DNA from: Billgrantia desiderata | GTDB lineage: Bacteria; Pseudomonadota; Gammaproteobacteria; Pseudomonadales; Halomonadaceae | Direction: 5' to 3' | Assembly (NCBI GenBank): GCA_011742915.1 | Contig: JAAQTN010000006.1 | Location: forward strand, 95,094-159,093 | DNA: 64,000 nucleotides | Shown here: one piece after another, positions 5,653-60,851 of the stretch | How the letters are laid out: each line of letters begins with the position of its first letter | How positions within the stretch are numbered: position 1 is the first letter of the stretch | Program-made: the position numbers and the translations under genes | Notes under the pieces: generated by a model | What the model was told of the DNA's origin: nothing | Databases searched by the model: none | What the model saw: the letters and a program-made list of their open reading frames with translations, nothing else

Positions 5653-6867
5653 ATGGCCCGACGTCAGCGCGGCCCTTCGCGCAGCTATGACAAGCCGGTC
5701 GGCTATGGCGTGCCCACGCTGCTGGCTATCGGCCTGCACGTGCTGGTCGTGGTGCTGAGCCTGGTCACTCTGCCGCAGCGTCAGCCGGCCGATCCCGAGT
5801 CGACGTCGATCGTGCAGGCGACACTGGTCAGCACCGAAACCACCACCGACCAGGCTCAGCGTGCCGAGGAGGCACGAGCGCGTGCCGCGGCGCGGCAGGC
5901 GGAAGAAGAGGCTCGCCAGGAAGAAGAGGCGCGCCAGGCCGAGGCCGAGGAGCAGGCGCGCGCCGAAGCCGAGCGTCAGGCGGCCGAAGAGCGTGCCCGC
6001 GAAGCCGAGCAGCAGCAGGCGGCACGTGAAGAGGAGGCTCGCCGGCTGCAGGAGGCCAGACAGGAAGCCGAGGCCGAGGCGCAGCGCCGGGCCGAGGAAG
6101 CCGAGCGCCAGGCGCGGCTGCGCGAGGAGCAGGAGGCCGAGCGTCAGCGCCAACAGGAAGCCGCGGCGGAAGCCGAACGCCAGCGCCAGCAGGAAGCACA
6201 GCAGCGCGCCGAAGAGGAGGCACGACGCCAGCGGGAAGCCGAGGAACAGCGCCAGCGCGAAGCCGAAGAGCAGCGTCGCCGCGAAGAGGAGGCCCAGCGT
6301 CAGCGCGAGGCCGAGGAACAGCGTCGCCGCGAGGAGGAGGCCCAGCGTCAGCGCGAGGCCGAGGAGCAGCGTCGCCGCGAGGAGGAAGCCCAGCGTCAGC
6401 GCGAGGCCGAGGAGCAGCGTCGCCGCGAGGAGGAAGCCCGGCGTCAGCGCGAGGCCGAAGAGCAGCGCCGTCGTGAGGAGGAAGCCCGGCGTGCGGCCGA
6501 AGCCGCCAGTCAGGGGCTCGATCGCGCCATCGAAGGTGAGTCGGATGCCGTGGCCAACGCCCGGCAGGCCCAGGAGGCCGCCAACAGCTTCATCAACCTG
6601 GTGCGCCGTGCCGTGGAGCAGGCGTGGGTGATTCCGCCCGGCGCCGGCGGCGGGCTTGCGGCCACGGTTCAGGTCCAGTTGGGTCCCTCAGGGGAGCTGT
6701 TTGGCGCTACCATTACTCAAAGTAGCGGAGATAGCAGTTTCGATCGCTCCGCCTTACAGGCTGTGGAAGCCGCCGCACCCTTTGGCGAACTGCGCCAATT
6801 GCCGCCGGCGGCACAACGTGACTTCCGCCAGTTCAATCTGCGTTTCACACCGGGAGATGTACGCTGA
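5653..6867 (+). CDS. tolA: Tol-Pal system protein TolA
   Basis: Inner-membrane protein spanning the periplasm to contact Pal and TolB. ATG 5653 is preferred over an in-frame GTG at 5614 because AGGAG lies 5 bases upstream (5643-5647); it gives 404 aa beginning [19 protein letters not shown]. An N-terminal anchor helix ([19 protein letters not shown]) is followed by a long Glu/Arg/Gln/Ala-rich helical domain with 16-residue repeats, then a C-terminal globular domain from about [16 protein letters not shown] onward with TonB-like topology. The stop overlaps tolB by one base (TGATG). Confidence 0.94.
6265..6504 (+). repeat. Five 48-bp tandem repeats inside tolA
   Basis: Five adjacent near-identical 48-bp units (starting 6265, 6313, 6361, 6409, 6457) each encode the 16-residue unit [16 protein letters not shown] or a close variant. 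Units 2-4 differ at only a few bases; unit 5 decays at its end into RRAAEAA. The units lie in the periplasm-spanning helical stalk, so copy-number change would alter stalk length without shifting the frame. Confidence 0.9.
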
Positions 6868-24288: not shown

Positions 24289-24392
24289 GTCAGATTCCGG
24301 CTGGTTGGGACGTCGGTGGCTGGGACTTCGATAAAAGTGTAAGGCCTGGCGTGGTCGGTTTCGAGCCGGTCGGCTTCAGCCAAGGCCTACAA

Positions 24393-24533
24393 GGCTCTGT
24401 CTGAAAAGTCGGCGAGCGAAGGCCAGACAAGGAAAAAATCAGCGAAAAGACGGAGTTTACGGGGTGTAAATGAGTATTTTGAGCTGGTTTTTAACGCCGT
24501 ATGGCCGAGTGCAGCCAGTTTTCGGACAGAGCC
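24393..24533. mobile_element. MITE-like element, type 1 (GGCTCTGT ends)
   Basis: A 141-bp non-coding element bounded by inverted repeats: left AGGCTCTGTCTGAAAA (24392-24407) and right TTTTCGGACAGAGCCT (24519-24534), 15 of 16 matched. Its centre holds CGGAG, then the stem-loop TTTAC-GGGGT-GTAAA (24456-24470), then TGAGTATTTTGAG. No transposase is encoded. A TA follows the right end (24534-24535); the left flank reads CAA, so a clean target duplication is not visible. The right boundary supplies the TAG stop of the carbonic anhydrase gene. Confidence 0.8.
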
Positions 24534-25189
24534 TAGCAACTGTCAGGCGCTGCCTGAAGGCGGTCGATGCGATAGAGCGTAGCCACCTGATCCAGCCCTT
24601 CGACGGTGCAACCGAGATCGGCGATGCGACCATCGCCCAGGCCGTAGATCCAGCCGTGAATCGAGAGCTCCTGGCCGCGCTGCCAGGCGAGCTGAACGAT
24701 CTTGGTACGACACAGGTTGTTCACCTGCGCCTGCACGTTGAGCTCGCAGAGCCGATCGACCTGCTGATCCAGCGGCAAGTGGGCTAGTGAAGGGCGGTGT
24801 TGGCTATACAGCTCGCGCACCGAATGCAGCCAGTAATCCACCATGCCGCAATCGCCCCCCGTGACTGCCGCGCGCACGCCGCCGCAGCCGTAGTGGCCGA
24901 CCACCATGATATGCCTGACCTGGAGGACGTCGACGGCATACTGCACCACGGAGAGGGCGTTCATGTCGTTGTGATGCAGCAGGTTGGCGACGTTGCGGTG
25001 GACGAAGACCTCACCCGGTGGCAGCGAGACGATCTGATTGGCCGGTACCCGGCTGTCGGAGCAGCCGATCCAGAGGTAATTCGGATTTTGCTGACGGGAA
25101 AGGCGGGTGAAATACTCCGCATCTTCCTGACACATCCGCTCTGCCCAGCGCCGGTTGTTTTCCAGCAGGCAGTCGATTTCCTGGTTCAT
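24533..25189 (-). CDS. can: Beta-class carbonic anhydrase
   Basis: Zinc enzyme interconverting CO2 and bicarbonate. Zinc ligands and catalytic dyad are seen in CSDSRVP and HYGCGG, with HRNVANLLHHNDMNALSV as in the E. coli Can type. ATG at 25189 (MNQEIDCLLENN) gives 218 aa; the frame runs further upstream to 25258 without family support. The TAG stop is formed at the junction with the type 1 inverted-repeat element, so the last few residues (LQAAPDSC) should be checked against relatives for a changed end. Confidence 0.94.
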   Translation of the reverse strand: MNQEIDCLLENNRRWAERMCQEDAEYFTRLSRQQNPNYLWIGCSDSRVPANQIVSLPPGEVFVHRNVANLLHHNDMNALSVVQYAVDVLQVRHIMVVGHYGCGGVRAAVTGGDCGMVDYWLHSVRELYSQHRPSLAHLPLDQQVDRLCELNVQAQVNNLCRTKIVQLAWQRGQELSIHGWIYGLGDGRIADLGCTVEGLDQVATLYRIDRLQAAPDSC

Positions 25190-50527: not shown

Positions 50528-50673
50528 AGGGAACTGCTGAACAAATAGGCGAGCGGAGTGAAGCGCAAGGCGCACGGAGCACAGGAACCGGAGCATATGG
50601 GGTATATGTGAGGATTCCGAGCACCGCGCAACGCAGCGATTTGCCCGCGCAGACATTTGTGCAGCGTTTCCCT
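50528..50673. mobile_element. MITE-like element, type 2 copy A (AGGGAA ends)
   Basis: 146 bp, non-coding, bounded by 19-bp inverted repeats AGGGAACTGCTGAACAAAT (left) and ATTTGTGCAGCGTTTCCCT (right), 16 of 19 matched, flanked by TA on both sides (50527-50528, 50673-50674). The core is CGGAG, stem-loop CATAT-GGGGT-ATATG (50594-50608), TGAGGATTCCGAG. It is closely similar, in reverse orientation, to 60640-60851. The right end plus TA forms the TAG stop of the acetyltransferase gene. Confidence 0.85.
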
Positions 50674-60639: not shown

Positions 60640-60851
60640 AAGGAAGCGCTGCACAAATGCCTACGCGAGCGAATCACTGCGTTGCGCGGTGCTCGGAATC
60701 CTCACATATACCCCATATGCTCCGGTTGACTCGAAGCCTGCGGCTTCTCGCCCCTTCGGGGCCAGCCTACGGCTGTTTGTCGCTTCGCTCGGTACTGCGC
60801 TCCGTGCGCCTTGTGCTTCATCTCGCTCGTCGATTTGTTCAGTGCTTCCCT
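60640..60851. mobile_element. MITE-like element, type 2 copy B (AGGGAA ends)
   Basis: 212 bp with 19-bp inverted ends (left 60640-60658, right 60833-60851, 16 of 19 matched) and TA flanks (60639-60640, 60851-60852). It matches copy A at 50528-50673 in reverse orientation, including the core CATAT-ACCCC-ATATG (60705-60719), but has about 65-70 extra bases (about 60727-60798) containing small hairpins such as GCCTGCGGC and CCCCTTCGGGG. It fills the gap between the Nudix gene and tRNA-Ser. Confidence 0.83.

Follow-up and report, generated by a model that had tools for sequence, protein, structure and literature searches.

Why should short inverted repeats with unlike ends share one hairpin? The question arises from a 64,000-nucleotide stretch of the Billgrantia desiderata genome (the window), in which three copies of a 44-nt core each lie within a near-palindrome of 141–210 bp. 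The initial annotation had described three elements with a common core hairpin and unrelated-looking ends, and the sequence at these places is as it described. Element limits were taken from ends and flanks; scores are those of R1, a covariance model built from this genome's copies alone.

24393..24533, + strand: element, 141 bp, end type GGCTCTGTCTGAAAAGTCGGC
24441..24484, + strand: folded core, 44 nt, stem TTTAC/GTAAA, loop GGGGT (65.9 bits, E 1.5e-15, in the R1 training set)
50529..50672, + strand: element, 144 bp, end type GGGAACTGCTGAACAAAT, flanks CTA...TAG
50579..50622, + strand: folded core, 44 nt, stem CATAT/ATATG, loop GGGGT (69.9 bits, E 1.2e-16, in the R1 training set)
60641..60850, − strand: element, 210 bp, end type AGGAAGCGCTG..., flanks CTA...TAA, with insert
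60691..60735, − strand: folded core, stem CATAT/ATATG (47.2 bits, E 1.7e-10, outside the R1 training set)
60726..60796, − strand: insert module of about 70 nt beside the core (approximate limits), at the same place in other copies of this genome

The third element is longer than the other two because about 70 nt are inserted beside its core. The flanks of the first are CTA with three extra bases and TAG. The end types in the window differ in sequence and both resemble IS5-type ends. Between TTTAC/GTAAA and CATAT/ATATG three of the five stem pairs differ and every difference is compensated, again as first reported. The copies at 24393 and 50529 fold end to end, beating 200 of 200 dinucleotide shuffles on either strand (z of −7.9 and −3.7 for the core strand). 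Parts of the window elements are overlapped by ORFs of the program-made ORF list. Elsewhere in the window, positions 6090–6521 hold a tandem array of 24-nt period that by eye is rich in Glu, Arg and Gln codons.

Genome-wide, the pattern GGAG-N5-GGGGT-N5-TGAG has 32 exact matches, and the same pattern read backwards has none. Stems closing a GGGGT loop are of three types (TTTAC/GTAAA, CATAT/ATATG and CCTAT/ATAGG), each with its complement, and further stem types carry other loops; hence the loop is not conserved. The compensated stem differences stand, but the genome holds more than two stem types. R1 finds at least 73 matches in this genome at E<0.001 and 74 at E≤0.1, and, as scoring covered 150 of the 939 candidates of a first look, these counts are lower bounds. 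In L036, L039 and L040 the GGCTCTGT class is shortened to about 60–70 bp of ends without a core, which recalls the short Yersinia ERIC forms of 69–127 bp described in PMC2267715. In a second genome, G541, forms of about 100 bp have a different hairpin where the core would be.

A fixed mismatch pattern within covarying stems

The structure of the core was named from an alignment of 15 copies of this genome (14 distinct). It comprises 12 pairs: four pairs, a bulged A on the right, two pairs, a bulged G and two facing G-A dinucleotides, followed inward by a G.U pair, five pairs and the loop. In this alignment 99.4% of cells pair, against at most 59.5% in slid controls. Among 56 core matches taken one per genome (54 distinct) and aligned by fitting to the model, 99.5% of 648 cells pair and eight of the 12 pairs have changed on both sides. 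The 54 distinct sequences contain 126 doubly changed cells (shuffle mean 38.5), and several of their pairs show at least three standard pair types. The covariation score is 0.531, compared with 0.192 when shuffled and at most 0.114 in slid controls. The covariance-model comparison across relatives that the initial annotation had proposed thus yields covariation far beyond the two stem types of the window.

RNAalifold, unprompted on a MAFFT alignment of 66 sequences, returned the identical 12 pairs, ten of them with double changes. From 78 chosen rows, visual inspection removed three near-duplicate or irregular copies for alignment A6 and nine more for the final A7. In A7 the entropy is 0–0.27 bits at the six mismatched or bulged columns (both G-A dinucleotides, the bulged G and the bulged A) and on either side of the G.U pair. 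Among the 12 pairs, three show 0.11 bits, and the remaining paired columns 0.4–1.4 bits. The loop, which had been taken as a constant GGGGT, varies at 1.3–2.0 bits. Mismatched positions are therefore as fixed as the most fixed pairs, whereas other pairs covary, which points to selection on the fold rather than to simple correction of one arm by the other. Covariation, the RNAalifold result and the column entropies together argue that the core is kept by selection on a folded single strand, RNA or DNA, as had been suggested.

Distribution of the core

In the class, 110 of 369 genomes (88 of 272 genera) have an R1 match at E≤0.01, and in the phylum 68 of 398 genomes have one, with 15–17 candidates scored per genome; in the class scan about four genomes would be expected by chance if the E-values, which are rough, were exact. 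The false-positive rate of R1 rests on these E-values and on a scan with the exact pattern GCGGAGTTTAC-N3..8-GTAAATGAGCA. This has 22 fixed bases, for which we estimate about 0.2 chance matches in 257 Gb, and it occurs in at least 118 stretches. Among the 80 matches listed, sources include Pseudomonas, Stutzerimonas, Halomonas, Salinicola, Chromohalobacter, Marinospirillum, Methylophaga, Nitrosomonadales, Mariprofundales and Vibrio. Records with Bacteroidota titles (Alistipes, Tannerella, Tannerellaceae, Prevotellaceae, Rikenellaceae, Flammeovirgaceae, Chitinophaga and Bacteroidetes) are all MAGs among the matches listed.

The copy in a ‘Pedobacter’ MAG (L313) looks proteobacterial and may be contamination. 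Flanking genes at eight loci from MAGs labelled Bacteroidota are housekeeping genes of mixed kinds, which do not decide the phylum. Dozens of copies, with arms not seen elsewhere, occur in each of several Alistipes and Rikenellaceae MAGs that come from different animals, which speaks against binning error. The copies shown from Bacteroidota-labelled MAGs are mostly near-palindromes with their own ends; L326 and L411 are without a matching right arm, and the stem of L410 is CATAC/GTATG. Sixteen genomes were reached through exact-pattern loci, and because they were picked for holding the pattern they give no frequency. R1 matches 14 of them, with up to 46 copies in the Alistipes and Rikenellaceae genomes; the Vibrio and Methylophaga genomes gave no R1 match at E 0.01. 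A Mariprofundales MAG with a 2-Mb genome (G797) carries a very heavy element load, 149 of 150 scored candidates matching R1. The search had been framed for Halomonadaceae; the core extends well past that one family, being wide in Pseudomonadota and present in MAGs labelled Bacteroidota, and hence apparently in two phyla.

Ends, insertion and apparent core replacement

A matching arm block is present in 128 of 190 unique copies; in 93 of these 128 its starting distance from the core is 44–56 nt on either side. An ungapped matching outer arm, at a threshold set for this analysis, is found in 100 of the 190. These terminal inverted repeats and the lengths of the window copies (141, 144 and 210 bp) are those of MITEs, which lie under about 500 bp. 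Arms vary widely, including GGAARCGCTGAACAAAT, GGCTCTGTCTGAAAA, CAGGCYGTTGAAAAAC, GGGCRCCTCTAAAAAC, GAACCTGTTCACGATCT, CCTACTGTGTCACAAAG, GGGAACCTCTGATTAAT, GAGGGTGTTTACAAA and others. Single-linkage clustering put the ends of 100 copies into 17 clusters, one with 67 members, which is a poor count of end types since unlike ends were chained together.

Identical cores occur with different ends. In G541, L107 and L177 share the same 44-nt core, and in G611 L225 and L226 do so; across genomes, L076 has the core of L077 and L197 within different ends. These pairs support ends that are interchangeable around one core and bear out the earlier idea of different mobile ends around a shared cargo. Part of the insert module, too, is shared, 26–40 nt aligning at 82–92% to inserts of elements in G541, a genome of the same order.

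Some ends match those of autonomous insertion sequences, in genomes other than the elements' own. The ends of the 24393 element resemble Azotobacter IS5-family ends, CTAGGGTTTGTCTGAAAAGTCGGC; the Azotobacter element has CTAGGGTTTGTCTGAAAAGTCG at both ends and transposase pieces above the NCBIfam cut-off. Rhizobium and Sinorhizobium elements of about 1.5 kb have CTAGCAGGCTGTTGAA(A/G)AAG at both ends and IS5/IS1182-like transposase pieces that score below curated cut-offs. A decayed Marinobacter IS5 shows one end, CTAGGGAACCTCTGAATAA. The ends of ISPsy19, an IS5-family element (GAGGGTGTAGACAAAAT; Tables 1 and 3 of PMC3189936), resemble those of L147, L171 and L174 in this genome. A search for a matching insertion sequence in the same genome as its element found none; in G541 no autonomous insertion sequence was found, a 1.1-kb candidate being without transposase. 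R1 detected no core in five plasmid IS stretches (best score 11.7 bits).

Insertion can be followed by comparison with a relative, G754. In the window the 24393 element separates GGCCTA from TAGC, and the matching place in G754 (L392) reads ...GCCTAGC... without interruption; by this alignment the element is an insertion at CTAG, the target being duplicated in the flanks CTA...TAG. Five other loci were tried. At L152 and L149 the flanks are contiguous in G754, neither with CTAG at the junction, and at L149 the missing stretch is longer than the element. L145 gave no clean empty site in three relatives, and L158 had only one flank among the matches listed. For copies with unique arms we also considered that the target had been a terminator hairpin already in place; this was rejected, no hairpin being seen left at L152 or L149 in G754.

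At the fifth locus, L161, the element is present in G754 too (L408), with flanks and outer arms 95–96% identical. The middles differ: L161 has the stem CCTA/TAGG and no insert, whereas L408 combines the stem CATAT/ATATG with an insert of 66 nt. Conversion from another copy, replacing the middle, explains this most simply. Stem changes would then not all be independent compensatory events, some having been inherited as blocks. Recombination, which the initial annotation had set against its own proposal, seems to this extent real: the core has apparently been exchanged, with flanks and outer arms kept.

Relationship to sX9, ERIC and other repeats

An Rfam scan in E-value mode placed RF02228 (sX9), a Xanthomonas sRNA, on the opposite strand of the element at five loci, four with E<0.03 and L128 with 0.69; of these only L126 is above the cut-off. 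The gathering cut-off of 44 bits is exceeded by a copy of this genome (G000:C10, 45.5), by G082 (51.6) and by L126 (47.0). None of the window elements reached any Rfam cut-off, that of sX9 included. In a sample of 94 genomes sX9 matches six. Of the 18 sX9 places listed, 12 fall on R1 places that are also listed, in every case on the opposite strand. Four more belong to genomes whose R1 matches are listed incompletely, and the last two to genomes that R1 does not match (G042 and G046). The sX9 model overlaps the element and starts in its apical hairpin but, unlike the full element, describes one half on one strand. Judged by these overlaps, sX9 is the opposite strand of half the element. It is the sole transcript evidence found, on the strand opposite to the one folded in the initial annotation. 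sX9 reportedly was first described as an sRNA from Xanthomonas RNA sequencing. Several sX9 copies rise under copper in Xanthomonas, as described in PMC10924375.

ERIC (also IRU or RU-1) of enterobacteria and Vibrio is likewise an intergenic, multi-copy, imperfect palindrome, of about 127 bp, and shares with the core family the motif order AAGGCGA - GGAG - hairpin - TGA - GAGC - AACGC on the same strand. Three ERIC records from two loci score 22.7, 19.8 and 19.8 bits with R2, a model trained without ERIC. Strand and register agree, and across 8.2 kb no other match exceeds 9.8 bits; R1 gave no ERIC match at E≤10. Ends, compared by eye, and stem lengths differ, and our elements do not carry the 127-bp ERIC consensus with its ends, so that the relation runs through the core alone. 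E. coli carries ERIC as well as the core family. These comparisons are suggestive of ERIC as a distant relative. ERIC RNA affects mRNA decay in Yersinia, according to PMC2229807 and PMC10969869. The E. coli ERIC between ybhJ and ybhI (L043:109-232) scores 46.4 bits with RF02818 (V_AS5, Vibrio antisense RNA AS5), below the 96-bit cut-off, and V_AS5 is perhaps another Rfam RNA that is a mobile repeat. Nothing in the names of the Rfam models overlapping such repeats, sX9 and perhaps V_AS5, hints at mobile palindromes.

MITEPsy1 and other IS-derived MITEs of Pseudomonas share IS5-like ends, a CTAG/YTAA target and small non-coding size. MITEPsy1 moved in vivo, and its description, as far as PMC3189936 was accessible, mentions neither a conserved folded core nor exchange of ends. 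REP/BIME sequences with RAYT are also short mobile palindromes, with an unpaired sequence tag, defined as GTAG or CGTC beside the hairpin (PMC3733652). Unlike them, our hairpin is central in a longer element with IS-type ends and has neither tag; the core reads GGAG...TGAG, and the REP/RAYT reading was rejected. Judged by eye, attC sites, self-cleaving ribozymes, kink-turns and SECIS elements misfit in bulge lengths and conserved centre. A literature search from which subscription papers were mostly absent found no description of this superfamily, and a search by sequence strings returned nothing relevant by title among the matches listed.

Genomic position and strand

Neighbouring genes of the 190 unique copies were called with a simple, unvalidated ORF caller. 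Relative to the core strand they run −− in 70 copies, ++ in 38, +− in 43 and −+ in 16, with 16 copies inside an ORF and seven unclear. Tandem genes thus read the sX9 strand 70:38 (one-sided binomial p 0.0013). Of 173 right ends, 118 face the 3' end of a gene, 90 of them within −30..40 nt; of 168 left ends, 81 do so, 37 of them within that range. Orientation and end position together suggest that transcripts more often carry the sX9 strand. G541 alone runs 3:5, against this bias, and at annotated E. coli loci the sX9 strand is sense in only one of three.

The base pairs of the core point the other way. Over 165 sequences they include 21 GT and 4 AC, favouring a fold of the GA strand, with the proviso that the model itself disfavours AC; pair 15–31 is G.T in 159 of the 165. 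Inner arms have 270 AC and 99 GU, outer arms 102 AC and 207 GU, counts that disagree with each other and are dominated by repeated conserved mismatches. The strand evidence therefore conflicts, as the core favours the GA strand whereas the only known RNA, sX9, is the other, and our commitment to an RNA reading is only moderate.

Places similar to the L117 element occur in 5,375 of 5,426 E. coli genomes, with a median of 5 per genome having any. They include pheM–pheS and qseG–qseE, where R1 confirms the core, as it does in K-12 between qseG and glrK. The pheM–pheS copy (L250:1201-1312 and L251) sits between the pheM leader and pheS and might influence how phenylalanyl-tRNA synthetase is expressed. 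Another copy, in an enterobacterial genome (L117:1233-1380), adjoins the GlmY sRNA gene; the K-12 copy (L254:2573-2616) lies between glrK and qseG, with glmY upstream of glrK.

Interpretation

On balance we favour a MITE superfamily with a conserved folded core and exchangeable ends, in which the core may act in the processing of transcripts crossing the element. Its members are near-palindromes of about 144 bp in many copies, some with IS5/IS1182-like ends, and their core keeps a fixed non-Watson–Crick pattern (tandem G.A, bulged G and A, G.U pair) alongside several covarying stem pairs and a free loop. DDE transposases of insertion sequences would move the elements in trans through their ends. 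The core would form a module of its own, maintained because selection acts on its single-stranded fold, and conversion between palindromic copies would swap it among them and give it new ends. For the role of the core we lean tentatively towards transcript processing: a transcript through the element might fold into one long hairpin, within which the core might decide where, or whether, cleavage or protection occurs, along the lines proposed for ERIC RNA. The sX9 RNA would then be the surviving half, and the start of its model inside the apical hairpin suggests cleavage there. Counting against this explanation are the three of 12 core pairs as fixed as the unpaired motif, the conflicting strand evidence, the apparent core replacement at L161/L408, the search that found no transposase partner in an element's own genome, and the two genomes with an sX9 hit and no R1 match.

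The core might instead work as DNA, in single-stranded or cruciform form, bound by a host or transposition factor that raises mobility or copy number, transcription being incidental. The invariant motif and the GT excess fit a fold of the GA strand, neighbouring mRNAs more often carry the other strand, and there are many copies with many end types. Yet the five IS stretches searched were without the core and, IS5-like transposition is not known to need a single-stranded intermediate, which we count against a DNA-level role; we regard it as unlikely.

A core without function would require that palindromes correct themselves, template switching between arms and conversion matching the stem changes and shared ancestry explaining the rest. 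The replaced middle at L161/L408 agrees with this, as does the palindromic character of the arms beyond the core. Correction between arms would, however, homogenise mismatches or ignore them, whereas the G-A dinucleotides, the bulged A and the G.T pair are among the least variable positions, and most paired columns vary together, also in Bacteroidota-labelled MAGs. We consider this account improbable. It is most improbable that the stem differences came solely from recombination between a few lineages of one MITE family with changed ends: stem type is mostly linked to end type in the copies listed for this genome, but identical cores carry different ends and several pairs show three or more standard types across the 54 sequences.

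A broader reading is possible, and we hold it with less than even confidence. A single folded module, common to Pseudomonadota and Bacteroidota, could be its own unit of selection, having recruited many unrelated IS ends and moving between them by conversion. It would then unite ERIC, the sX9 ‘sRNA’ and numerous unnamed repeats in one superfamily, with a conserved host factor reading the tandem G.A fold.

The ends are what usually identifies a MITE, the sequence between them counting as filler. In this family it is the middle that is conserved and the ends that can be replaced, across many genera and apparently in two phyla, which turns that view around. This offers a reason for the place of sX9 among the 20 most prevalent bacterial sRNAs in one survey, as reported in PMC9029176. 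ERIC, which has long served in strain typing, may likewise gain a wider family and a structural core open to testing, so that the old question of what ERIC-like repeats do would become tractable through four core nucleotides.
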